From a candidate division BRC1 bacterium HGW-BRC1-1 (GTDB lineage Bacteria; Sumerlaeota; Sumerlaeia; Sumerlaeales; Sumerlaeaceae), in the NCBI GenBank assembly GCA_002842095.1, contig PHCB01000009.1, positions 9,468 through 73,467 on the forward strand: a DNA stretch of 64,000 nucleotides, given 5' to 3'. The translations under genes and the position numbers were made by a program. The notes beneath the pieces are model-generated. The model worked only from the letters and a program-made list of their open reading frames with translations, had not been told where the DNA came from and did no database searches. Below, piece after piece: positions 9,310-62,484 of this stretch (position 1 is its first letter; each line of letters begins with the position of its first letter).

Positions 9310-10257
9310 ATGGCAAAATTGGTGCTGGGAATCGATCTGGGCGGCACGGATTGCAAGTTCGGGTTGATGGACGAGACCGGTCATATCGTGCGCAAGGCGA
9401 AGTACCCCACGCGCGGCGAACTGGGCCCTCAGGGCGTGCTGGAGAACATGGCCGAAAACGCCCGCAAGCTGATGGGCGACGACGTTATGCGCGCCGTGGG
9501 GCTGGGCGTGCCCGGCGTGATGAGTTCGGCGCGGGGCTTCGTGTATGAAGCGCCCAACCTTCCCGGATGGGTGAACGTGCCCGTGGGGGCGATGCTGTCG
9601 CAGGCGCTGGGTTTGTCGGTGGCCGTGAACAACGACGCCAACGCCGCGGCCTACGGCGAGTTCTGGGCCGGCGCGGGTCGGGCCGTGGAAACGATGATCA
9701 TGTTTACGCTGGGCACGGGTGTGGGCGGCGGCATTATTCTGGATGGCAAGCTTTACACCGGCCCCGACGACACCGCCGCCGAGTTGGGGCACATGTGCGT
9801 GAAGTACGACGGACCGCGCTGCGGCTGCGGCGCGTTCGGTTGTCTGGAAGCGCTGGCCAGCGCCACCGCCGTGCGTCGCATGGTGATGGAAGCCCTCGCG
9901 GCCGGGCGCAGCACACGGATCGAAATTCCTGACAACGAACTGGAACTGGGAGCGAAAGCTGTGGCCGATGCTGCCATGGCGGGCGACCTGCTGGCGCGCG
10001 AAATTTTCGACACGGTGGGTCAGGCGCTGGGCGCGGCGGTGGGCACGGTTATCAACATCTTCAACCCCGACATGATCGTCTTTGGCGGGGCCATGGCCAA
10101 CGCCGGCGAGTTAATCTTCGACCCCGTGCGCCGCGAAGCGCGCGCCCATTCCTTCGCCAAACCGTTCTCCCGCGTGCAAATTGTCCGCGCAGACCTGGGC
10201 GAAGACGCCGGAATCGTGGGAGCCGCAGGCCTGGCGCTAAAAGCCGAACGCGGGTAA
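9310..10257 (+). CDS. ROK-family sugar kinase (glucokinase-like)
   Basis: ATP-dependent hexose kinase, 315 residues. LGIDLGGTDCKFGL forms the phosphate-binding loop, NNDANAAAYGE contains the catalytic Asp, and GTGVGGGI follows. The ROK zinc motif is intact (CGCGAFGCLEALAS, with an upstream His in ELGHMC). The sequence resembles bacterial glucokinases, but mannose, fructose or GlcNAc kinases look alike at this level. ATG 9310 was chosen because conserved sequence begins at once and GGGAG lies upstream; an earlier start at 9253 adds an unconserved stretch. It is convergent with mutS, with a 9-bp repeat between them. Confidence 0.88.
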   Translation: MAKLVLGIDLGGTDCKFGLMDETGHIVRKAKYPTRGELGPQGVLENMAENARKLMGDDVMRAVGLGVPGVMSSARGFVYEAPNLPGWVNVPVGAMLSQALGLSVAVNNDANAAAYGEFWAGAGRAVETMIMFTLGTGVGGGIILDGKLYTGPDDTAAELGHMCVKYDGPRCGCGAFGCLEALASATAVRRMVMEALAAGRSTRIEIPDNELELGAKAVADAAMAGDLLAREIFDTVGQALGAAVGTVINIFNPDMIVFGGAMANAGELIFDPVRREARAHSFAKPFSRVQIVRADLGEDAGIVGAAGLALKAERG

Positions 10258-10369: not shown

Positions 10370-13165
10370 CTACTGCACCAGCCGCCGCAGTTGCGCCAGC
10401 AGGTTCAGCGCTTCCAGTGGCGTCAGTTTTTCCACGTTCACCTCGCGCAGGCGCTCCACCACCGGATGACCCATCACGTCGAACAGCGTCAACTGCACCA
10501 TCCCGCCGCCGCTGCCCGCACCACTGTCGCCGCCGTCGCCGGGATGCACCACTTCCACGGCGTTGCCCATTTCCAGACTGCCCAAAATTTCCTTCGCCCG
10601 CGACACCACCGCCTTCGGCAGGCCCGCCACCTGGGCGGCATAAATGCCGTAGCTGTGGTCGGTGCTGCCGCGCACAATTTTGTACAGGAACGCCACGCGC
10701 TCGGCTTCCTCCAGCACGGCCACGTTGTAGTTTTTCAACCGCGCCAGCGGGCCTTCCAACTCCACCAGTTCGTGGTAGTGGGTGGCGAACAACGTGAGGG
10801 GTCGCCTGCCGGGCGTGTTGTGAAGATACTCGATCACCGACCACGCGATGCTCAGTCCGTCGTAGGTGCTCGTGCCGCGTCCTATTTCATCGAGAATCAC
10901 CAGACTCTCATCGGTGGCGTTGTTGAGGATGTTCGCCGTTTCGCTCATCTCCACGAGGAACGTGCTCTGGCCCTTGGCCAGTTGATCCATGGCCCCCACC
11001 CGCGTGAAAATGCGGTCGACCAGCGGCACCACCGCCGACGACGCGGGCACGAAGCCACCCATGTGGGCCATGAGCGTAATGAGCGCCACCTGCCGGATAT
11101 ACGTGCTCTTGCCAGCCATGTTGGGTCCGGTGATAAGCAGAATCTGGTGGTCCTCGGGATCGAGCAGCGTGTCGTTGGGTACGAAGGGTTGATCGAAATT
11201 CAGGGCCTCCAACACGGGGTGGCGGCCATCGGTTACGTTGAACGCAACGCCCTCACCCACCACGGGCCGCGCGTAGCGCCCGGCCACGGCGGCCTGCGCC
11301 AGCGACACGATGACATCCAGCGCCGCCACGGCCCGCGCGGTGCGTTGAATCTCGCGGGTGCGCGCGCACACCTCGTCGCGCAGGGCCTCGAACATTTCAA
11401 ACTCGAGCTCCTGAATGCGCTCCTCGGCGTGGAGAATGATCTCCTCTTTTTCCTTCAACTCGGGCGTCACATAGCGTTCGCCGTTTGCCAGCGTCTGCTT
11501 GCGGATGTAGTGCGGCGGCACGCGATCGACCTGCGCTTTGGTCACCTCGATGTAGTAACCGAAAACGCGGTTGTAGCCAATTTTGAGGTTCGAGATACCC
11601 GTGGCTGCGATTTCGTCGGCGCGCATCTGGGCGATCCAGGATTTCGAGTCGGTGCTGATGGCGCGCAATTCATCCAGCCGCGCGTTGCATCCTTCGCGGA
11701 TCATCCCACCTTCGCGCACCGTCAGCGGCGGCGTGTCGATGAGGCTCAGTTCCAAGCGTGTGGTGAGTTCTTCGAGGGGGTCCATCTCGTCGCGCAGGCG
11801 GTCGAGGAGCGGACGGGGTGCGGGCTTCGAAATTTTGGGTTCTGCTCCAGGCGTTTCCGAACAGGTGGCCGGATCCGCTACAGTTGCTGGATCATCGGTC
11901 AGGTTTGGAAACAATCCGTCGTCGGGTTTTTTCGCGCCGGGTTCGGTGAGCGCGCGCAGGCGCGGGACCTGGCGCAGGCTCGCACGCAGCGCCACGAGAT
12001 CGCGTGCATTGGCAGTTTTGCATGCGGCCCGCGACACGATGCGTTCGAGATCGTTCACACCGCGCAGACACTCCACCCCGCGGCGTCGACGCTCGTGGTC
12101 ATCCACAAACGCCTGCACCGCATCCAACCGAGCATTGATTTCTGCGCGGGTGCGCAGCGGTTGCAAAATCCACGACCGCAGTGCCCGCCCGCCCATGGCC
12201 GTGCCGGTGTGGTCCAGCACCTCCAGCAGCGTGTGGCGGCGCGTGGCATCGCTCAGGTTGCTCACCAGTTCCAGGCTGCGCTGGGTCACCGCGTCGAGCA
12301 TCATAAACTCGCCGGGGTGCGTCACACGCAACTCGTTCACGTGTAACATGGCGGTGCGCTGGGTCTCGCGCAGATACTCGAGGATTGCCCCGGCGGCGCG
12401 CACTGCGGTGGGCGATTCCTCCGCCCCGAAGCCGTGCAGATCACGCACGCCAAACTGCCGCAACAGCGCCGTGCGTGCCGCGTGGGAAGTAACGGCGCTT
12501 GCCTCAACCACGGCCATGCGTCCGCCCCCCGCGCCCGCGCCGGAAGCGGCACCCAGCGCGTTTTCTACCAACGGCAACAGGGCGTCGTGCTGGTCGCGGG
12601 CCGTCACTACTTCCGATGGCGAGAGGCGGGTCAACTCGTGGCCGCAACGCTCCTCGGCCCGCGCGCCGATAAATTCTGTAATGGAGAAATGTCCCGTGCT
12701 GAAATCGAGTGATGCCAGCCCCAGCGCATCTTTTTCGCGCACCACCGCCGCCAGATAGTTGTTCGCCTTGCCGTCGAGCAGGTTCTCTTCCAGCAGCGTG
12801 CCGGGCGTGACGACGCGCACCACCTCGCGACGCACCACGCCCTTGGCCTGCTTGGGGTTTTCCATCTGCTCGCAAATGGCCACGCGATGGCCGGCGCGAA
12901 TCATGCGCGCCAGATAGGGCTCCAAGGCGTGGTACGGAATGCCCGCCAGCGGGATCGACTCGCCCTGGGAATTTCGTCCGCGAGCCGTGAGCGTGATGCC
13001 CAACACCGCCGCACCGAGTTTGGCGTCGTCGTGAAACATCTCGTAAAAATCGCCGCAGCGAAAAAATATCACATGGTCGGGATGCTGCGCCTTGATCTGC
13101 GCATACTGACGCAGCAACGGCGTGGTGCCATCTCCGGCGGATGATTTGGATGAGCGGGTCGTCAT
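10370..13165 (-). CDS. mutS: DNA mismatch repair protein MutS
   Basis: Recognises mismatches and small loops and starts repair together with MutL. The 931-residue product has the mismatch-reading Phe-x-Glu in GDFYEMF near residue 40, the connector and lever domains, then the ATPase: Walker A GPNMAGKSTYIRQ, Walker B LVILDEIGRGTST and LFATHYHEL. The usual length is 850-880; part of the excess is a Pro/Asp-rich insert at roughly residues 405-455 in the lever region, which is probably a flexible loop. ATG 13165 was chosen because TTRSSKSS leads straight into the conserved domain; upstream in-frame sequence to 13309 is Arg-rich and unconserved. No mutL is present in the window. Confidence 0.95.
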   Translation of the reverse strand: MTTRSSKSSAGDGTTPLLRQYAQIKAQHPDHVIFFRCGDFYEMFHDDAKLGAAVLGITLTARGRNSQGESIPLAGIPYHALEPYLARMIRAGHRVAICEQMENPKQAKGVVRREVVRVVTPGTLLEENLLDGKANNYLAAVVREKDALGLASLDFSTGHFSITEFIGARAEERCGHELTRLSPSEVVTARDQHDALLPLVENALGAASGAGAGGGRMAVVEASAVTSHAARTALLRQFGVRDLHGFGAEESPTAVRAAGAILEYLRETQRTAMLHVNELRVTHPGEFMMLDAVTQRSLELVSNLSDATRRHTLLEVLDHTGTAMGGRALRSWILQPLRTRAEINARLDAVQAFVDDHERRRRGVECLRGVNDLERIVSRAACKTANARDLVALRASLRQVPRLRALTEPGAKKPDDGLFPNLTDDPATVADPATCSETPGAEPKISKPAPRPLLDRLRDEMDPLEELTTRLELSLIDTPPLTVREGGMIREGCNARLDELRAISTDSKSWIAQMRADEIAATGISNLKIGYNRVFGYYIEVTKAQVDRVPPHYIRKQTLANGERYVTPELKEKEEIILHAEERIQELEFEMFEALRDEVCARTREIQRTARAVAALDVIVSLAQAAVAGRYARPVVGEGVAFNVTDGRHPVLEALNFDQPFVPNDTLLDPEDHQILLITGPNMAGKSTYIRQVALITLMAHMGGFVPASSAVVPLVDRIFTRVGAMDQLAKGQSTFLVEMSETANILNNATDESLVILDEIGRGTSTYDGLSIAWSVIEYLHNTPGRRPLTLFATHYHELVELEGPLARLKNYNVAVLEEAERVAFLYKIVRGSTDHSYGIYAAQVAGLPKAVVSRAKEILGSLEMGNAVEVVHPGDGGDSGAGSGGGMVQLTLFDVMGHPVVERLREVNVEKLTPLEALNLLAQLRRLVQ

Positions 13166-52939: not shown

Positions 52940-53736
52940 ACTATTCTCCTTTGATGTCGTGATGTCATATCAGTGTTGGTCGAGCAAGTCATCAACTTTC
53001 GGGATGCCGCCGATGGGTCGGCTGGTAAAGCGACAGGCGCGGCGACTGGGGATTCGACACCAACTTCGCCTGCGATTCGTTTGTCAGGGCATTGTTCTTC
53101 GGTGTCATTGTTGCCTATAGTTTTATGAGTGGATATCGGCGGGAATGTTCCGGTGCACACTGTAAGATTTCGGAAATCGCCTCGCGACCTGGGGCCCCTT
53201 AACGTTCAGTAAGCCCGCATTTGGCGACTCGCCAGGGAGCAACGCCCCCCGTAAAACGTATCAGATGCCAGACCCGTGCCACAACTCCTTACGCGGTGCC
53301 CTGCGACACTATAGCGTTTTCGATTCAAATGATTACATACTCGTGGTGCGCTTGGATGTCGCATTGTGACCGCCCATCCCTGACGTCGGTGGCAACCACG
53401 GCCCCGCCCGGGCGCCCGATGCGACCGCCCTCCCATTTACCCACTTGCTGGCGGATGGCAACCTCGGTGCAACCGGCGTGCAACCGGCGTGCAACCGGCG
53501 TGCAAGCAGTGTAACTGGCGCGCAATCAACAAGTCGTTATCCACCCATCGGTCTGTCTCAGCCCTCCACGCGGCCTGCAATTGCATTCGTTGGACGAACA
53601 ACCAGAACAACTACCGTGCCGATCTGCCGGAAGGGGCGCACTACCTGAATAGCCGTAACAAATCCGCACTTCTATATCTCCAAGCCGGAGACGTTTAATC
53701 AAACTACTGAAGGGGGCTATTGCCACGGCATTATCC
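52940..53736. other. Gene-poor gap before the RHS-like locus
   Basis: About 800 bases without a supported gene; short frames on both strands have no recognisable product. It holds the 11-bp repeat array at 53467 and presumably the HPF promoter. It marks the border between the G+C-rich core and the AT-richer region that follows. Confidence 0.55.
53467..53521 (+). repeat. 11-bp GTGCAACCGGC repeat, about 5 units
   Basis: Three identical GTGCAACCGGC units, then GTGCAAGCAGT and a degenerate fifth. This is the second copy of the family at 36691. Confidence 0.9.
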
Positions 53737-54210
53737 TCATGGAGCAGGCTTTCGTAACGGAGCCCAATCTCGCTGAGTTCCGCTCGACAATATATTAAAG
53801 AACACTTCCGGCATCTCTGAAACTATTTTCAATCGGTTACCAACCCATTCCATCGCGTAGTCACCATTTGAATCTTTCGACCAAACAGTCGTTCCCATAT
53901 CACTGGATTGAAACCAAAGACGATTTGTCTTCGCTTCCCAATAAAGCGTCCAACGATGAAGCGCGCTGGCTCCTTCGGCGGACTTAAGTTCGGTCACCCC
54001 TTGGGCATCGACCAACTTAAACTCAATAATCTTATTGGGTACAATATAGGCCTCGATGCACCCGCCCGATGAAAGCCGGTAACGGCCCGTACGAGTGATC
54101 AAGGTATCATCATGTGTTGACGCATTCAAGTCAGGCCTGCGCGAACAACCACCCGTCATCATTCCAGCATAGACAATGAGGATAATAAGAGCAGTAAGGA
54201 TTGTTCTCAT
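53737..54210 (-). CDS. Small lipoprotein, unknown
   Basis: 157 residues with a lipoprotein signal (TILTALIILIVYAGMMTGGC) and Cys as the lipid attachment site. The mature part is beta-strand-like, with several Trp (RWTLYWEAKTNRLWFQSSDM) and no recognised motif. GGGAGA lies just before the ATG at 54210; a longer frame to 54462 carries unrelated residues. It is the last gene of a long run of small minus-strand secreted or membrane proteins and could be an immunity or surface protein of the RHS locus; that is inference. Confidence 0.65.
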   Translation of the reverse strand: MRTILTALIILIVYAGMMTGGCSRRPDLNASTHDDTLITRTGRYRLSSGGCIEAYIVPNKIIEFKLVDAQGVTELKSAEGASALHRWTLYWEAKTNRLWFQSSDMGTTVWSKDSNGDYAMEWVGNRLKIVSEMPEVFFNILSSGTQRDWAPLRKPAP

Positions 54211-54313
54211 CACTTCTCCCAGATACTTCGTTATTATTCTTGAAACGGCCAGCCCGTGGCTTTGATAATTCTGTTCCTGCAAATATATACTTCGCTGGCT
54301 GGCGACAGGAACG

Positions 54314-54895
54314 CTACTTCCCAGGAACCCCAACCACGGATTCCGGCTCGCCAAAGGATTCGCGCAGTTGGTCCTCCGCGATGGGGAACAGAACCGGCTG
54401 GCGGCCCGGTACGGAGAGCATGAACGGGCAGACAGCACGTTTGTGCGAATAATGATGTGCATAGAACCCGCAAAGCCGTCCGTTCTTGAGATAAAACTCC
54501 ATGCCAGAGTGAGGAAATCTGTCTTGTTTGTTCATGAATGCCTCGGTAATTCCGTTCCCAAGATCCTCAGTGCTTGCCCCCATCTCAGCCAACTCAGCCA
54601 ATCCAATCTCGCGAACGAGATACACTCGTCCGTTCCAATGGAACTGAAGGTCACAGTCGGCAGGAATTGCCTCCGCATCACGATCGCCGCATTGCACGCT
54701 GGAATACTCGATGCGCCCTTTCTTGACCCACGCCCCAACAAACTCCATATTCTGTTCGTAGTTTGCGTAATACCACTGGTTCCATTCACCCGTGGCGTGG
54801 TTCTCGGCGATATGTTCGCAAGCCGTTAGGAGCATGGCCGCAAGCGGCACCCACAAAAGCCAACCCGCAACCCGCGCGACTCGATTATTGTTCAT
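54314..54895 (-). CDS. Small lipoprotein, unknown
   Basis: 193 residues with a lipoprotein signal (AGWLLWVPLAAMLLTAC). Mature sequence: VQCGDRDAEAIPADC contains two Cys that may pair; WNGRVYLVREIGLAELAEMG and FYLKNGRLCGFYAHHY follow. There is no known domain. ATG 54895 is preferred over 54910. It is in line with the neighbours on the same strand. Confidence 0.65.
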   Translation of the reverse strand: MNNNRVARVAGWLLWVPLAAMLLTACEHIAENHATGEWNQWYYANYEQNMEFVGAWVKKGRIEYSSVQCGDRDAEAIPADCDLQFHWNGRVYLVREIGLAELAEMGASTEDLGNGITEAFMNKQDRFPHSGMEFYLKNGRLCGFYAHHYSHKRAVCPFMLSVPGRQPVLFPIAEDQLRESFGEPESVVGVPGK

Positions 54896-55004
54896 TCTGC
54901 TTTCTCTCATTCCCAGCGACTATGGCCGGAATCTGCAGGTTGTCATCGTGCTGCTCTTCGCCCACTCTTGGCAATCAATGCCTTTGCCTAATACTCTTTC
55001 GAGA

Positions 55005-55448
55005 CTAACGAAGCCCCGGTATTACTGTCGATTCACTAAACAGAATACGCTCGCTGGCCACGACAGTAGTTCCTTCCGCATCAAAGCTGATCTCTATAGC
55101 CTTTGGCCCTCCATCACTATAATATAGACTCGCAGATGTCTGATTTGAATCAACCACTCGCAGGCCGTACTCTTTAGCATAACTTCTTATCCGACGTTCT
55201 ATATGGTCGACAGTATGGTCCGAATGCTGTTCGAGTTTGATGTCTATCCATTCTGAGCATTGGTCTGCTATGTATTTTGACGATGGATCGCAAGTAAGAA
55301 TCGGAAAATATTTGACATAATCAATAACAATATCGTCATCATATTTCACGATCTGAAACGGCGAAGGGCGGTTAAAAAACACTATTCCCAGTGCCCCAAT
55401 GAGAATAAGCGTGATAGCAACTATCCACAAACATAATCTCCTACGCAT
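55005..55448 (-). CDS. Small membrane-anchored protein, unknown
   Basis: 147 residues with one N-terminal membrane helix (LCLWIVAITLILIGALGIVF) and an external domain with a Cys pair (LTCDPSS, DQCSEW) and a mixed alpha/beta pattern (HIERRIRSYAKEYGLRVVDS, KAIEISFDAEGTTVVASERI). It is preceded by a strong AAGGAGG. It starts 101 bases after the RHS gene stop, the position of an immunity gene for the RHS C-terminal toxin, so it is the best immunity candidate; no homology proves this. Confidence 0.6.
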   Translation of the reverse strand: MRRRLCLWIVAITLILIGALGIVFFNRPSPFQIVKYDDDIVIDYVKYFPILTCDPSSKYIADQCSEWIDIKLEQHSDHTVDHIERRIRSYAKEYGLRVVDSNQTSASLYYSDGGPKAIEISFDAEGTTVVASERILFSESTVIPGLR

Positions 55449-55548
55449 GAGTGCCTCCTTGGCTCCGCATGTAATCCGAAGTAAAAAATCAATTATACGG
55501 ACGAGAAAAGCTTATTAATAATAAGGTTGAATTTGCCATGAATCCCGA

Positions 55549-56748
55549 TCATTGAAAACTTCCGTCGCTCTCGGCTTTCCACTGACGCCAACGCCTCGAT
55601 TCACGAATATATGTGAATGGCCATTTGGGAGTGTCAGTGCAAGAACATGTCTTATGAAAAACTGGCGTAAAGTTGTGATTCGTACCCAAGCCACCATCTC
55701 TGCGCCAAATATCCTTTGATTCATCTGGATCAACCACTTTACATAATTCCCTCACCACTGTTTCGTCCAATATACGGGTAATCATGCTACCATGATTCGA
55801 TGCCGCAATATAGTAACTAATGATATCCGAAGGAAGATCCTCTTCCGAAAAACTGGAGCTTTGTGAGGGCAGAAAGCGGGCTTGATACTTCTCAAATATC
55901 ATAGCATAGTCTTTAAATATTCCCAGTCCAACACCTATCCCTTCGTCCGGCCTAAGCCCCAAAGGCACGTAATAATTATCACCGGCTGCCAAGCCAAAAT
56001 ATTTCCCAAATATTGTTCTTCCCATTGTCATCTCGCCCCGTATATAAAAACCCATACCAGTCTTGGATCGCTTTCCATCTTTGTTTATAATTCTATTGAT
56101 GAGGGAGGATGCGTTATCGGGTTTGGCGTGTCCCCAATCTATCCAACCACAGTTGCACGAATATTCCAACTTTTTAGGAATATCCTCGAATACACTCAAA
56201 CCCAAATAATCAAAAACTTGATTGACCATATTATGACTTACTGCATACAAATTAACGCCCCCCAACTCCCCGATGGGATCCCGGCTCAGCCAGCGTCCCG
56301 TGTCGGGGTTGTAGTAGCGGTATCCGTAGTAGTAGCACCCGCTGGCGGTGTCGAGCAGTTCGCTGCTGAAGCGCACGGGGTTGGCCTTGGCCAGGGGGCC
56401 GGTGGCGCGCAGGGGTTCACCGAAGGGGCCGTACTCGTACTCGGCACTCATCTCGCGGGCGTGCGTGGTCATCGAGACCAGCCGCTTCTCGCCGTCCCAG
56501 GTGTACGCCCAGCGCCCGTCCGACAGCAGGTTGCCGTCGTCGTCATGCACAAACGCCCCGGGCGTCTGCGGCACGAATACTTGACCGCCCGCCTCCGAAA
56601 CGCCGCTCTGGCTCTTTGTCGCACACACAGTGATGTCGGGGTACCGCGGCCCGGAGGCGTTGTCCACGGAATTGCGCTGTTGAAATAGTCTCGCATGCGC
56701 GCGGCGGTCAAGGTTCCGAAAAAAAGAACGTCCCCGTATCCCAATCAT
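55549..56748 (-). CDS. RHS-repeat C-terminal fragment with novel tip domain
   Basis: 399 residues. Residues about 66-184 are the end of an RHS core: DDDGNLLSDGRWAYTWDGEK, GCYYYGYRYYNPDTGRWLSR, then DPIGELGGVNLYAV. After the core border (FDYLGL, about 184) a 215-residue C-terminal domain follows, with CNCGWIDWGHA at 198-208, SSSFSEEDLPSDIISYYIAA, ELCKV and CSCTD. The thousand or more residues of shell expected in front are absent; the ATG at 56748 overlaps the previous gene by 4 bases. It is thus a truncated, displaced RHS tip. The C-terminal domain is variable in RHS proteins and is often toxic; I do not recognise this one. It may be expressed by coupling or be a silent cassette. Confidence 0.75.
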   Translation of the reverse strand: MIGIRGRSFFRNLDRRAHARLFQQRNSVDNASGPRYPDITVCATKSQSGVSEAGGQVFVPQTPGAFVHDDDGNLLSDGRWAYTWDGEKRLVSMTTHAREMSAEYEYGPFGEPLRATGPLAKANPVRFSSELLDTASGCYYYGYRYYNPDTGRWLSRDPIGELGGVNLYAVSHNMVNQVFDYLGLSVFEDIPKKLEYSCNCGWIDWGHAKPDNASSLINRIINKDGKRSKTGMGFYIRGEMTMGRTIFGKYFGLAAGDNYYVPLGLRPDEGIGVGLGIFKDYAMIFEKYQARFLPSQSSSFSEEDLPSDIISYYIAASNHGSMITRILDETVVRELCKVVDPDESKDIWRRDGGLGTNHNFTPVFHKTCSCTDTPKWPFTYIRESRRWRQWKAESDGSFQ

Positions 56749-57089
56749 GGCATTATCTGGAGGCCGCGCATGGATTGGAACAGTAGCCAGACGAGCCACG
56801 TATAAACGATCCCATAGGTCAGCACCCCAGCGAAGACAGAAAAGGCAACTGCGGCGGACCTACCCCGAGACGCCTCTGGACCAACGTAGGACAACGACAA
56901 CGCCACGGAGATGAATGCGCAGAACAGAAAGATCAAGTTTTCCAGAACGATAACAGGAGGGGCGACCCGCGCCCCCCACGGAAGGTGATTGTAAGCCGCA
57001 TAAGAAAACCTCCAGTAGATCCACGAAAACACGCCCACCAACAGCGCCAATCGGAAAGCGAATTGTCGGCTACTCTGAGGTTTTGCCAT
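56745..57089 (-). CDS. Small membrane protein, unknown
   Basis: 114 residues with three hydrophobic helices (RLALLVGVFSWIYWRFSYAA; PPVIVLENLIFLFCAFISVA; VAFSVFAGVLTYGIVYTWLV). GGGAGG lies 7 bases before the ATG and overlaps the stop of the preceding gene, so the two are tightly coupled. Its own stop overlaps the ATG of the RHS fragment. It is an orphan-immunity-like membrane protein by context only. Confidence 0.65.
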   Translation of the reverse strand: MAKPQSSRQFAFRLALLVGVFSWIYWRFSYAAYNHLPWGARVAPPVIVLENLIFLFCAFISVALSLSYVGPEASRGRSAAVAFSVFAGVLTYGIVYTWLVWLLFQSMRGLQIMP

Positions 57090-57092
57090 TCA

Positions 57093-57638
57093 TCAACCTC
57101 CCGAAAGATTAAGGTTAGGTCCAACAACCGTCCGAGGCCGGGTTGCTGCATTTGTTTGTTTCCGGTAGCCCCGATCAGCGTGGTTCCGATAACTTTTCAA
57201 GTATCTCGTGTGCCATTGTATTCGGCCTTGTTGGTTTTTTGTCAATCTACTAAATTCGCTCGTTTGCATAAATCGGTCGAGGTGATCATATAAAGCAGCG
57301 GCATCACCGTTGATAAGCTCATAAAAGATCTGGGATGTCACAGCGTTCTTAGCCATCTCACAGGTCGCAATAATAGTCTGAAAAAATACCAACCGGTCTG
57401 ATAAGCTACACTGCACCAATACCGGCTCCTGCTCGTCGAGGCTATAATACCAAAGATTGTCTGAGAGAAGGCTCCTGTAATAGGCAACCAACACCGGCCT
57501 CACCATGGAGCTTGCTTTAGAGCTCATCTCGATATGGGCCACCGGGCTGAGGTTATAAAGAAAAAGAACTCCCAACACAGCAAACGCTGCCACGCCCGAT
57601 ATCCAGTATCTCGCCTTAAGAAAACGCTTTTCATTCAT
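57093..57638 (-). CDS. Membrane-anchored protein, unknown
   Basis: 181 residues. One N-terminal membrane helix (YWISGVAAFAVLGVLFLYNL) then a mostly helical domain (VRPVLVAYYRSLLSDNLWYY, FYELINGDAAALYDHLDRFM) and a basic C-terminal tail. ATG 57638 with AGGTGA upstream is preferred. It begins 31 bases after an RHS relic, which suggests that it once partnered that RHS tip. Confidence 0.6.
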   Translation of the reverse strand: MNEKRFLKARYWISGVAAFAVLGVLFLYNLSPVAHIEMSSKASSMVRPVLVAYYRSLLSDNLWYYSLDEQEPVLVQCSLSDRLVFFQTIIATCEMAKNAVTSQIFYELINGDAAALYDHLDRFMQTSEFSRLTKNQQGRIQWHTRYLKSYRNHADRGYRKQTNAATRPRTVVGPNLNLSGG

Positions 57639-57667
57639 ATCATCACCTGACCCGTAGATAACCATAC

Positions 57668-57776
57668 AAATCCCACGTGTAAGCCCACCGCCCGCCGGAA
57701 AGCAGGTTTAATTGTACCTGAAATAATGCTCTGGCCGATCGTCGCACGCACTGTAACATCCGGATACCGCGCCGCA
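57668..57776 (-). pseudogene. RHS core relic
   Basis: The minus strand encodes RYPDVTVRATIGQS in one frame and NLLSGGRWAYTWD in another. The intact RHS gene at 55549 has RYPDITVCATKSQS and NLLSDGRWAYTWD with about 24 residues between. The relic thus lost most of that segment and shifted frame; about 100 bases remain, between two small membrane-protein genes. Confidence 0.8.
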
Positions 57777-57794
57777 CCCATGTGTTTGGAGATA

Positions 57795-58865
57795 TCAGTC
57801 ACGCCAGTAGACCATACCTCCACCAGGCCAAAGCCCCTCTGAACTAAGTGTCACAACTGGATAGACACGGTCGCGCTCCGTGTCGAACACCGAAAAGCAC
57901 ACGTCCAGGTTCGCCCCCACGTCGGTTGAGTTCGGCATCTGGGACGTCGATTTCAGAACAACCCATCGACCCGATGGCGAGAAGCCCCCAAATGCTGTAT
58001 CCACCACCGCTTCATAGCGAACAACCAATCGATTCCACAGTCCCTCACCACAAATCCTCATCTTCCGCAATTCCGGAAATGGATTATCAATGATGACTCT
58101 TCTTCCCTTCGAATCGCGACCAAGCCCGATGGCCGCCTTCCTCGTCAGTCGGTCTAGCGCAAAATCATAATGCCACAGTTGTTCCCCAGTGTTTTCGAAA
58201 CCGTACACCTGGGGCTCGCTCATGAGAAACAACGCATCAGAACTTCGCGCATCCACCACGAGGTGGACGGGACGGACCGCTTCAGAGCCGTGGCAGGCAG
58301 CGAATGGTCTTGTCGTCGAGGTTTGCCCGTCAAGCGAGTAAAGCACGTAGGCGTCCCCGGCGGTGTTTATGCCGATCACATGGTTCTCCGTGATGCGTGG
58401 CCACGGACTCGTGGTGAGTCCATCGGCCCGCCAAAGGTATTGCACCCCGCTGGATTGAAGGTCTTTGACCACAACCTCCCATGGTCGGGTCCCGTCCAAG
58501 CGCTGCCAACCCAACATATAACGCCCGGAGGGCGAAACCGAGTCCGCAATACCCTGCCACTCGCCTGCATAGGTCACTGTCCGTGAGCTCACATCCAAAT
58601 ACGCTGCCTGGGATCTGCACGCCCCCCAATCTCTAACCCCAGACTCGGGAACCGTTATGAGCAACTGTTTAATCACCAACTTGCCAGTCACGAAGTCGGG
58701 GTAGTTGTGAATCACCCCGCGCAGCGGTCCTGCCGTGAAGGGAATACCCGCACTGCTCGAGGAATCGTGGGGCCGAGAAACCCAATGCAAGATGAATCCG
58801 ACACCTAACGACATGACGGCAGCGAACAAGAGAATAAAATAAAGTCGTTTACGACTCATCACCAT
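57795..58865 (-). CDS. Membrane-anchored beta-propeller-like protein
   Basis: 356 residues with one N-terminal membrane helix (RLYFILLFAAVMSLGVGFIL). The rest has repeated Trp and SPSGR motifs (SVSPSGRYMLGWQRLDGTRP; GGFSPSGRWVVLKSTSQMPN) and a WLW/LWHYD pattern, suggesting a TolB/WD40-like beta-propeller, possibly periplasmic. AGGAGG lies 6 bases before the ATG. It is followed at once by the RHS relic. The function is unknown. Confidence 0.65.
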   Translation of the reverse strand: MVMSRKRLYFILLFAAVMSLGVGFILHWVSRPHDSSSSAGIPFTAGPLRGVIHNYPDFVTGKLVIKQLLITVPESGVRDWGACRSQAAYLDVSSRTVTYAGEWQGIADSVSPSGRYMLGWQRLDGTRPWEVVVKDLQSSGVQYLWRADGLTTSPWPRITENHVIGINTAGDAYVLYSLDGQTSTTRPFAACHGSEAVRPVHLVVDARSSDALFLMSEPQVYGFENTGEQLWHYDFALDRLTRKAAIGLGRDSKGRRVIIDNPFPELRKMRICGEGLWNRLVVRYEAVVDTAFGGFSPSGRWVVLKSTSQMPNSTDVGANLDVCFSVFDTERDRVYPVVTLSSEGLWPGGGMVYWRD

Positions 58866-58993
58866 TAAAGTCCTCCTGACTTAACAGACCAGTCTAAAAA
58901 GAGAGCATTTTGCCTGAAAGAAGGCGAGAACGGAAACATGAAACACACGCGAGAAAGAAGTACAGATCAGACAATATACATCTGGAAGCTGTG

Positions 58994-59422
58994 TTAGGGG
59001 AGATAACGTGATAAAAGCCCGCCGACCCAATACAAAACCAAGGCGCAACACAATTCACCCGAGAGCAAGAAAAAGTCGCGCCATACCCACCGGTGATGAG
59101 AGTAAACGTCACGCAGGAAAACCAAAAGCGCACCCCCCCATGCCAGCGCGCCGAGCAGGTTTAGAAAATAGAATATCCACATCTCGCCGAAACCGTATAG
59201 ACCAATAACGGCATCACGTAATATATAGGCATCACCACCAGATGCCTCGATAAGACCTCGCATCACAAGGATCTCTATCACCATTGTTGGAAACACGATA
59301 CATATCGGCAACCAGTAGATATCGACACGAAATCTAAAGGGCGGTTTGCCAACTATGGCGGGCTGTACCGGTTCGTCCTGATTCTCTTCCACAAAGCCTC
59401 CTTGTGAAGCAGTCTCGTTCAT
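58994..59422 (-). CDS. Small membrane protein, unknown
   Basis: 142 residues with about three or four membrane helices (WLPICIVFPTMVIEILVMRG; FGEMWIFYFLNLLGALAWGG; LLSGELCCALVLYWVGGLLS). The N-terminus is polar and acidic. ATG 59422 and GTG 59437 are both possible. There is no family assignment. Confidence 0.55.
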   Translation of the reverse strand: MNETASQGGFVEENQDEPVQPAIVGKPPFRFRVDIYWLPICIVFPTMVIEILVMRGLIEASGGDAYILRDAVIGLYGFGEMWIFYFLNLLGALAWGGALLVFLRDVYSHHRWVWRDFFLLSGELCCALVLYWVGGLLSRYLP

Positions 59423-59564
59423 GCCCAGATACGACACAAGCCCGGCGTTGCCAGGGCGTCATTCTCACGGGTTCTTCGTCAGCGAGGTCAAGGAAAACAA
59501 ACTACGCAAGAATGGGTTCTCACAGAGGACGGGTCATTGCCCACGACAGGCGAAAAACCCGAAT

Positions 59565-59981
59565 CTATTTGGGATTGGGTTCTTTATAAAACACGATATC
59601 TTCGGGAGTATCCAAAAGGACCAAGACCTTTTGTGAATACCTGAAAGCATGTTTGAAACGTGCTCCGCCACTGGTGGGGAGATCGGCTCCCGCCAGGACA
59701 AATGGAAAGATCATGTCTGAGGCGATACTCCAAGAGCCCACTATATCCTGTCGCTCTTTTAGCTCCAGACCCGAATGCGGGTAAAAGAAGAAATTCGGCA
59801 CATCCCGACCGACAAACCGCCCATTGTCAGAGAATTCGAAAATGATTACGCCTGACTGATCTGAAGCCGAAGGCTTCGTGCGATACACACCCACGACATC
59901 CTCGTGCCGCAGATTACTTCGCACACAACCCGTTGTGGACATAAAAATGCAAGCGATCAAGATTAACAGCATTGGCTTCAT
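59565..59981 (-). CDS. Small lipoprotein, unknown
   Basis: 138 residues with a lipoprotein signal (MLLILIACIFMSTTGC). The mature part starts SNLRHEDVVGVYR and continues with strands (GVIIFEFSDNGRFVGRDV), a pattern seen in small beta-barrel lipocalin-like domains, but this is a weak guess. ATG 59981 was chosen because the signal peptide starts there. It follows the duplicated membrane genes by 39 bases. Confidence 0.62.
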   Translation of the reverse strand: MKPMLLILIACIFMSTTGCVRSNLRHEDVVGVYRTKPSASDQSGVIIFEFSDNGRFVGRDVPNFFFYPHSGLELKERQDIVGSWSIASDMIFPFVLAGADLPTSGGARFKHAFRYSQKVLVLLDTPEDIVFYKEPNPK

Positions 59982-60020
59982 TGGCGAGTTCCCGTCTGAC
60001 CAGCAGGTCAACTATTAGCC

Positions 60021-60281
60021 TTACTTCATATAGTGAAACAATATGACGAAGTAGAATGGGGCATGAGCCAACCATCCGACTTTAACCGCTGTGTATTGTG
60101 AAAGCCAGAACGATAGCCCATACATCGCAAAAACGACCATCCAGCAGACTGGCGTGGGATATGCCGGGTCCTTGTAGAGCATGGGAGCGATAAGATAATA
60201 ATACGCGAGGACGAATATGCTTAACAACGTGCAAACGACAATCATAGGCACAGCCCATTTTTGTAGGGACAATAACTTCAT
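60021..60281 (-). CDS. Small membrane protein B2 (duplicate of A2)
   Basis: 86 residues with about three hydrophobic segments. Its C-terminal half (WMVVFAMYGLSFWLS, then HAPFYFVILFHYM) matches the gene at 60658 (WGVVFILYALSLYLC, NAFFVFVILFHNL) at many positions. Start ATG 60281 has GGAG 11 bases upstream. It is the second member of a two-gene unit with the gene at 60304. Confidence 0.62.
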   Translation of the reverse strand: MKLLSLQKWAVPMIVVCTLLSIFVLAYYYLIAPMLYKDPAYPTPVCWMVVFAMYGLSFWLSQYTAVKVGWLAHAPFYFVILFHYMK

Positions 60282-60303
60282 GTCAGCATTTGCTCCGCAT
60301 TTT

Positions 60304-60561
60304 TTATAACATGGAAGAGATGAGTAATATTGCAATTGGTATCTGAGCGCCTGCAAGTCGAAGAGCCGTCTGTCCACAAACAATAGAAGCCACAATGGTC
60401 ATCAGGTAGGAAATCGAGACCGGAATAATATATATCAATAAAAACTCCAAAGCATCTTCCTCGTAAGCATCCTTCTGAAGACGGCCCATTTCTATAGCCC
60501 ACCAAATATTAAACAGCAGGAAGAACCAATACCCAATGGCCAAAAATCTTTTGATATTCAC
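60304..60561 (-). CDS. Small membrane protein B1 (duplicate of A1)
   Basis: 85 residues with three hydrophobic segments. Shares FNIWWAIEMGRL, YIIPVSISYLMT and AQIPIAILL with the gene at 60990 (FNIWASLEFVRL, YGIPVIVCYLFT, AQLPLAVIFL). Start GTG 60561; the ribosome site is weak. It lies 22 bases upstream of its partner B2. Confidence 0.62.
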   Translation of the reverse strand: MNIKRFLAIGYWFFLLFNIWWAIEMGRLQKDAYEEDALEFLLIYIIPVSISYLMTIVASIVCGQTALRLAGAQIPIAILLISSML

Positions 60562-60657
60562 TTGAGAAAAATCCAGTCCATGTGGTGTGCAAAAAGCTCA
60601 TACAGGAATTGTCAGCCATTGAAGCGGCGTCTCCGTCATTGTTTTAAATCGCTCCAA

Positions 60658-60960
60658 TTACATTGGATACTCCGATGATCTCATCAAATACGGCAAGGCG
60701 ACCGCGAGGTTATGGAACAATATGACGAAGACAAAGAAAGCGTTAGCCACCCAACACATTATGCGGGGAGCGAATCGACACAGGTAAAGGGACAGAGCGT
60801 AAAGTATAAATACAACGCCCCATACCACCACAAAAGGGTTGGGAAGATTCATCATAAAGTCCGGATATACGAATCGATACAAGTATAGCGTAAAGATGTT
60901 GATCGCCGCAAAGACGCCAATGGATATCGAGGCTCGGAATGGTGTCATTAATGTTCGCAT
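60658..60960 (-). CDS. Small membrane protein A2
   Basis: 100 residues with three hydrophobic segments. Paralogue of the gene at 60021. ATG 60960 has AAGGA close before it; a longer frame to 61185 enters A1 and is rejected. It follows A1 by 29 bases. Confidence 0.62.
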   Translation of the reverse strand: MRTLMTPFRASISIGVFAAINIFTLYLYRFVYPDFMMNLPNPFVVVWGVVFILYALSLYLCRFAPRIMCWVANAFFVFVILFHNLAVALPYLMRSSEYPM

Positions 60961-60989
60961 GGTTCCTTCATTCTGTTCATATGTAAGAT

Positions 60990-61400
60990 TCATTGGGTGA
61001 GGAAAATAACGGCCAATGGTAACTGGGCCAGAAGAAGATAGAGTAGGGCCGGTTTCATCCAAAACGCTCCCAAAACCGTGAAAAGATAACAAACAATTAC
61101 AGGAATTCCATACATGATCCCAAAATCCATGGGTTCTTCCTTGGATTGGTAAGTCACAAGGCGCACAAATTCCAAAGATGCCCAAATGTTGAAGCCCAGG
61201 ACGAACCTGTAGGCGCAGTTGAAAATTTGCATCTTAGTGGGTGGGGGGCTGTTTAGTGCATGGTGAATGCGTGAAGAGATATTCGAGCCGGCGAGGGGAA
61301 CGGTTGCTTCGCCCGGGTTTCCAGCGGGCGTTGGGGCACCAGCTTCGGTCGGCGGGTCGGGATCGTTTTCTTTTGAATTGGGGAATGGTTTTGAATTCAT
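60990..61400 (-). CDS. Small membrane protein A1
   Basis: 136 residues. A polar Pro-rich N-terminus of about 55 residues precedes three membrane helices homologous to the gene at 60304. AAGG lies 8 bases before the ATG. It is the first gene of the A pair, 31 bases after the lipoprotein gene at 61432. Confidence 0.62.
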   Translation of the reverse strand: MNSKPFPNSKENDPDPPTEAGAPTPAGNPGEATVPLAGSNISSRIHHALNSPPPTKMQIFNCAYRFVLGFNIWASLEFVRLVTYQSKEEPMDFGIMYGIPVIVCYLFTVLGAFWMKPALLYLLLAQLPLAVIFLTQ

Positions 61401-61431
61401 CTTGGGGACCTTAGGAGATTCATCATCTGCT

Positions 61432-62484
61432 TTACTGCGAAATGAGCTGTTTCTTAATGGAATCGGTCATGCCGCCGACCCTTCCGCGCCTAATCGCATC
61501 CTCCATATCCACGCTGTTTTGCGTGGAGATGATGGCCCTGCGAGGTCCCTGCCCGGGGTCCCACTTGACCGGCAGTAGCCAAGTCACGCGTTCTACATCG
61601 GACTGGTGGTACGCGTATATCACATACGTATCCTCTGCGATTTGCTGAAACTCAAAGTCCCCCTCGGCATCGACCACTGTTTCATCAACAGTGCATGAGT
61701 CGATCATGGCGACAATGTCGCGTGTGCCGCGGAAGACAATCTCGCCCTCGGAGTGGTTGCCGTCCAGGGCAATCTCAAGGGCTCCCGCGCGTTCCGTGGG
61801 TGCGGAGCATTTCAATTTCGGGTTCATGGTCGCGAGTTCCCGCATTTTGGCATCGAGTCGGGTCTCCAATTGCATGTCGAGTGCATCAAACCGGGGCAGC
61901 ATTTGTCGAACCGCCTCTATGCGGTCCTTCATGTGCGCTTTGGTCTTTTCGTTCACTTCTATGACGTTGCCCTTCCCTGTTATCGGATCGATGTAGTTGC
62001 AGGTCGACCAACCAACCTTGTTGCAATGGGAGAGTTCGCTTTCCTTTGCTGCCAACGCGGCAACCCAGAGTTGTTTGGTTTCTTGGTTGGAGTTCTTTTG
62101 TTTAGCGATCTGAAAGGCGTCGTAGGCCACGAACCTCGTCTGCATTTGGTGCATCGTGGCCTCCCACTTAGGCCACAGGGTTTTTGCTGCCACGAGCTGA
62201 ACCTTCATGCCCGACAGCGTATCTTGTCCTCGAGCCAGTTTCAGGAATGCCTGTCCGGACAACGAAAAACGGCGAGCTTCGGGCGAACCGCCATTCCCCA
62301 CTTTTGCCGACACGGGTGAGGCGGACGCAGTTCCCTCCGGTTGATGTTGAACGGATGATTCCTGTGGTTGCGCGACGTTAGCGCCTGTGCCTTTATTGTC
62401 GCCTGCGCACCCTGCAACGAAAAGAGCGGCTGAGATAGAAGCGCATAGAACCCATGATGGTGTAAGGAATCTTGTACCGGACAT
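61432..62484 (-). CDS. Lipoprotein, unknown, with beta-sandwich-like C-terminus
   Basis: 350 residues with a lipoprotein signal (SWVLCASISAALFVAGC). A Ser/Gly-rich linker precedes a helical region (about 80-210: KTLWPKWEATMHQMQTRFVA; RIEAVRQMLPRFDALDMQLE) and a C-terminal part with Cys pairs (LKCSAPTERAG, DSCTVDETV) and FEFQQIAEDTYVIYAYH, which resembles a carboxypeptidase-regulatory beta-sandwich. ATG 62484 follows a GGGG-rich ribosome site. It is the first gene of the small-protein run and lies 31 bases upstream of A1. The function is unknown. Confidence 0.65.
   Translation of the reverse strand: MSGTRFLTPSWVLCASISAALFVAGCAGDNKGTGANVAQPQESSVQHQPEGTASASPVSAKVGNGGSPEARRFSLSGQAFLKLARGQDTLSGMKVQLVAAKTLWPKWEATMHQMQTRFVAYDAFQIAKQKNSNQETKQLWVAALAAKESELSHCNKVGWSTCNYIDPITGKGNVIEVNEKTKAHMKDRIEAVRQMLPRFDALDMQLETRLDAKMRELATMNPKLKCSAPTERAGALEIALDGNHSEGEIVFRGTRDIVAMIDSCTVDETVVDAEGDFEFQQIAEDTYVIYAYHQSDVERVTWLLPVKWDPGQGPRRAIISTQNSVDMEDAIRRGRVGGMTDSIKKQLISQ

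Follow-up and report, generated by a model that had tools for sequence, protein, structure and literature searches.

An array of displaced RHS toxin-immunity leftovers is, in our judgment, probably what occupies a minus-strand run of 14 intact genes at positions 53737 to 62484 of the window, the 64,000-nucleotide stretch of DNA analyzed here. Loci of this kind are known, and this would be a new example. An earlier note on this DNA had likened the run to arrays of displaced RHS tips and their immunity genes that build up beside a full rhs gene. The likeness holds for the displaced tip, for a relic of an RHS core, for the envelope-anchored neighbors and for two sister arrays elsewhere in the genome, but no full rhs gene stands beside the run.

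A dense, AT-rich run of envelope-anchored genes

The earlier note had described an unbroken run of 14 minus-strand genes, lower in G+C than its flanks, coding mostly for lipoproteins or small membrane proteins and including a duplicated two-gene unit, and our measurements bear this description out (Table 1). The 14 open reading frames cover 89% of the run and overlap by at most 4 bp. Automatically called frames of at least 85 amino acids cover 85% of its minus strand; in 200 Markov-resampled copies this coverage averages 22% and never exceeds 42%. The G+C content is 50.4%, versus 59.2 to 63.2% across windows of the same length in positions 1 to 53736. By simple hydropathy and lipobox scans combined with reading, a hydrophobic segment is present in all non-RHS products (13/13), of which four carry a lipobox, three have a single transmembrane (TM) segment and six (w02-w05, w07 and w11) appear to be multi-pass. 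The two-gene unit is duplicated with its order kept, w02 and w04 sharing 35% amino acid identity (E = 2e-10) and w03 and w05 sharing 39% (E = 2e-9), with E-values that refer to a small database.

Table 1. Features of the run, in window coordinates
Feature	Position	Strand	Basis
w15, lipoprotein	53737..54210	-	Lipobox scan
w14, lipoprotein with a 46-residue match in G014	54314..54895	-	Lipobox scan and class search
w13, single-TM-anchored protein, likely immunity protein of the tip	55005..55448	-	Position and topology
w12, shell-less RHS frame (core stub plus tip)	55549..56748	-	TIGR03696, E = 1.2e-19
RHS tip, predicted Lipocone domain of CapCone/DUF4056 type	55549..56257	-	Motifs, profile comparison
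RHS core stub	56258..56660	-	DNA identity to third C2 core
w11, multi-pass membrane protein, translationally adjoining the RHS frame	56745..57089	-	Hydropathy, overlap
w10, single-TM-anchored protein	57093..57638	-	Hydropathy
RHS core remnant, frameshifted, tipless	57671..57771	-	Alignment with intact core
w08, single-TM-anchored protein, 356 aa	57795..58865	-	Hydropathy
w07, multi-pass membrane protein	58994..59422	-	Hydropathy
w06, lipoprotein	59565..59981	-	Lipobox scan
w04-w05, copy 2 of the two-gene membrane unit	60021..60561	-	Amino acid identity
w02-w03, copy 1 of the two-gene membrane unit, 4-bp gene overlap	60658..61400	-	Amino acid identity
w01, lipoprotein, 350 aa, absent from seven family members	61432..62484	-	Lipobox scan, family search

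One shell-less RHS fragment and one decayed core

As the earlier note had also proposed, the window contains one RHS C-terminal fragment without a shell and one decayed RHS relic, and no full-length rhs gene. Profile searches recognized the core of the fragment, w12, as TIGR03696, and returned nothing usable for the neighbors with Pfam and NCBIfam. The w12 frame begins with an ATG at 56748 that overlaps the stop of w11 by 4 bp, and G+C content drops at the tip boundary, from 68% in the core stub to 42% in the tip. Over 196 bp, the stub is 93% identical in DNA to the third of three core copies on another contig of the assembly (C2), relative to which it carries an internal deletion. The identity stops at GGGGAG, the point where the tips start, and no similarity was found between the window tip and the third C2 tip. 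We thus find two features of an orphan module: a C-terminal tip joined to an RHS core stub with the shell absent, and a core in common with another rhs copy whose tip is unrelated. The relic consists of two colinear core blocks (57771-57728 and 57708-57671) with 75% and 84% nucleotide identity to an intact core; the spacing between the blocks is 53 bp shorter than in the intact copy, so they fall in different frames, and no tip is attached. The term graveyard, used in the earlier note, suits this one decayed core, but the tip, its predicted active site and the neighboring frames are all intact.

The tip resembles CapCone-type Lipocone enzymes

Because relatives of the tip end a complete RHS protein of 2031 amino acids, with YD repeats and a hydrophobic N-terminus, in a Sedimentisphaerales metagenome-assembled genome (L035), and an RHS fragment in an Anaerolineae one (L036), the window tip is, judged by homology, a genuine RHS warhead. 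A weaker relative is a stand-alone protein of 233 amino acids from Pantoea plasmids. Next to all three relatives is encoded a small protein with an N-terminal hydrophobic segment, and we found no convincing kinship of these proteins with each other or with w13. On the Pantoea agglomerans plasmid NZ_OW970316.1 (L037:4944-6070), the stand-alone relative is followed, with a 4-bp overlap, by the gene for a TM-anchored protein of 142 amino acids; this plasmid may therefore carry a toxin and its immunity gene as a shell-free pair.

Two motifs and a profile comparison suggest that the tip belongs with the CapCone/DUF4056 Lipocone enzymes, predicted cleavers of lipid head groups. Phospholipid or polyisoprenoid lipid head groups are the predicted substrates of Lipocones, and CapCones carry two motifs, a Gly six residues ahead of the H2 His and an S/GxxSxx preceding the H4 Asp (PMC12419801). 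Both are present in the window tip: GWIDWGH, at about 56148-56128 and invariant in the four tips, supplies the Gly six before the H2 active-site His, and SSFSEED, ending at 55837, matches S/GxxSxx before the H4 Asp. In hhalign, these align with GGxIDxxH and SAFSWED of DUF4056. The alignment of the tips against DUF4056, represented by ten domains from genomes of the phylum of G061, gave a probability of 91% (P = 1e-6, 22 columns), versus at most 0.4% in 20 column-shuffled controls. The Pfam DUF4056 profile matched weakly in two tip relatives only, with E-values of 0.0031 and 0.018 that are both below the cut-off, and AlphaFold run on the tip with three sequences gave a pLDDT of 30, too low to show the four-helix core and beta-hairpin clasp expected of a Lipocone.

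Neighbors as possible immunity genes

Immunity proteins of Lipocone toxins are all said to be TM proteins or lipoproteins (PMC12419801). From its position and predicted anchor, w13 is probably the immunity protein of the tip. It is the only neighbor tied to the tip, and by position alone, which counts against the displaced-array reading. The other 12 non-RHS genes would be orphan immunity genes, as judged from position, topology and comparison rather than homology. The earlier note's proposal of orphan immunity agrees with the comparison, in that envelope-anchored products such as these follow RHS tips in relatives, but for 12 of the 13 neighbors we only infer the role. In one family relative (G007:C199), two tandem RHS tips are each followed by a gene for a TM-anchored protein, which overlaps the end of the tip gene by four bases, and in the class relatives G013 and G020 a lipoprotein follows a long RHS gene. 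No homology of w01-w11, w14 or w15 to toxin-tip immunity proteins was found in Pfam, NCBIfam, the class, two phyla and plasmids.

A comparison with relatives, proposed in the earlier note, showed no conserved gene set. Searches for the tip and w02-w15 in 38 other genomes of the class gave a single match, of 46 residues to w14 in G014, and w01, searched for in the family only, was absent from seven family members; the group therefore does not share this run as a conserved operon. Beside the array lie MerR and UDP-sugar dehydrogenase genes, which are differently arranged in family members, and the HPF-like gene was not found in these members. Searches with the concatenated neighbors in the class, 392 genomes of the phylum of G061, 400 of the phylum of G062 and plasmids returned only w14, w15 and weak matches. 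A neighbor match in G141 was rejected as antisense to an ABC ATPase. The relatives of w15, in 2 of the 392 genomes, have no RHS neighbors, so w15 may not be an immunity gene; this too counts against the displaced-array reading.

We also considered whether the toxin system comprises only the RHS tip, the relic and w13, the rest being an unrelated AT-rich island of envelope proteins at the same place. This would agree with the lack of homology between the other genes and known immunity proteins and with the solitary relatives of w15, but all 13 products are envelope-anchored, both RHS pieces are interleaved with the neighbors, and the arrays on C2 and C9 (see below) share the make-up of RHS tips and small genes, so that we regard an unrelated island as unlikely. 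Less likely still is that the shell-less tip is used as it is, for example in an intracellular toxin-antitoxin pair, the role proposed for a Salmonella orphan rhs (PMC7043789). The frame is intact, starts with an ATG of its own and overlaps the preceding gene by 4 bp, which would agree with such use, but both the target predicted for Lipocones and the anchor predicted for w13 point to the periplasm, which the tip could not reach without an export part.

In another family relative (G005:C65, L067:1-4437), an RHS gene of a different kind follows VgrG-like and PAAR-like frames identified by reading, an arrangement suggestive of a T6SS-linked RHS within this family.

RHS loci elsewhere in the genome

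The assembly, in which the window is C5:9468-73467, comprises 3.77 Mb in 34 contigs and is 94.8% complete; there was no genus mate among the genomes compared. It contains six RHS core matches, three on C2, one in the window and two on contig C9. None of them lies in an open frame of more than about 600 amino acids, the shell family PF25023 has no match in the assembly, and YD repeats above the family cut-off occur, assembly-wide, only on C9; every detected RHS gene is thus shell-less or broken. In the C2 array, small genes separate three core-plus-tip frames and an IS5-family transposase follows the last of these; the C9 array has two core-plus-tip frames, additional broken RHS pieces, and genes for a WD40-like protein, a lipoprotein and a membrane protein. 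The search for a full rhs gene elsewhere in the genome, suggested in the earlier note, therefore detected none and added two more shell-less arrays. A parent full rhs gene near an orphan module, usual in enterobacteria and not strictly required, is found neither in the window nor detectably in the assembly, which counts against the displaced-array reading.

This raises the possibility that a full rhs gene exists and was missed by the assembly, the arrays being ordinary reservoirs, an explanation compatible with the displaced-array reading. Long repetitive genes can break assemblies, and this one is in 34 contigs and incomplete, but the six core matches are interior to contigs and not even an isolated shell piece was found in the assembly; we consider a missed gene somewhat unlikely, though less so than an unrelated island. 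As unlikely as that island, in our estimate, is that the lineage discarded all RHS shells and that the three arrays form a standing tip reservoir and immunity bank with no resident delivery gene. In pairwise comparisons, the core copies of the genome gave dS values of 0.17 to 0.81 and dN/dS ratios of 0.05 to 0.29, over short stretches that make them indicative only; such ratios suggest that the copies diverged while within functional genes.

Three further observations concern the arrays. In all three C2 cores (L031:7480-7560, 9590-9670 and 11420-11520), the change of partner falls at one shared short GCGGCGGA(C/T) stretch, apparently a site of recombination within the core. The first C2 tip (L031:8012-8539) has a His and a late GRNCSDLL, reminiscent of permuted NlpC/P60 lipid-targeting toxins such as Tox-Act1; it has no Pfam match, so this likeness, noticed by reading, is no more than a lead. 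Each of the three RHS arrays has an 11-bp tandem repeat (GTGCAACCGGC/T) no farther than about 550 bp from its edge (window 53458-53505, C2:82240-82280 and C9:3147). The repeat was rejected as a boundary mark because it is dispersed through the genome, with 16 matches in the 860 kb scanned, and its link to the arrays may be chance.

Comparison with known systems and implications

The closest known systems are the orphan rhs-CT/rhsI modules of Enterobacteriaceae (PMC3967940; PMC3150448), in which a tip with a core stub likewise lacks the shell and export part and adjoins a small immunity gene, tested there and inferred here. Core identity to the partner copy is 95% in those modules and 93%, to another array, here. 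The enterobacterial modules lie downstream of a full main rhs gene, whereas those of this genome occupy three separate arrays, with no full rhs gene detectable. In Vibrio cholerae, sequential effector displacement has left arrays of immunity genes; like the run described here, these contain more immunity-like genes than tips, but they follow T6SS effector genes (PMC5361080). CapCone-1 and CapCone-2 form tips of polymorphic toxins whose immunity proteins are TM proteins or lipoproteins, and CapCone Lipocones include Pfam DUF4056 (PMC12419801), both motifs of which the window tip shares. In sequence it is closest to DUF4056, which is not among the toxin-tip families given in that study and is found here on RHS proteins. 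A DUF4056 T6SS effector candidate has been described in Salmonella (PMC11669294). This locus differs from the known orphan rhs and Vibrio arrays in having no detectable full rhs gene and in its predicted CapCone-type tip.

The following history would account for the displaced array. Recombination in the common RHS core may have repeatedly supplied an ancestral secreted RHS toxin gene with new tip-immunity modules, leaving older tips with a core stub; some tips would later have been lost or decayed while their membrane-anchored immunity genes were retained. One intact module would remain: the core stub, the tip with its CapCone/DUF4056-type Lipocone domain and, probably, w13 as immunity protein. 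Cleavage of phosphate-containing lipid head groups, from lipid II or a phospholipid in a target cell's envelope, is the predicted activity of the tip; the anchored proteins would stop toxins of this kind at the membrane. Lacking an export part, the tip would have to recombine onto a shell before it could act on other cells; short of that, the array would serve as an immunity bank.

On this interpretation, the range of displaced RHS modules takes in a lineage with little sampling, and RHS proteins are linked to a DUF4056-like (CapCone) Lipocone domain. A Lipocone tip on RHS leads to a testable prediction, cleavage of envelope lipid head groups countered by membrane-anchored immunity. This genome may also be a case where displaced tips seem to outlast every full shell.
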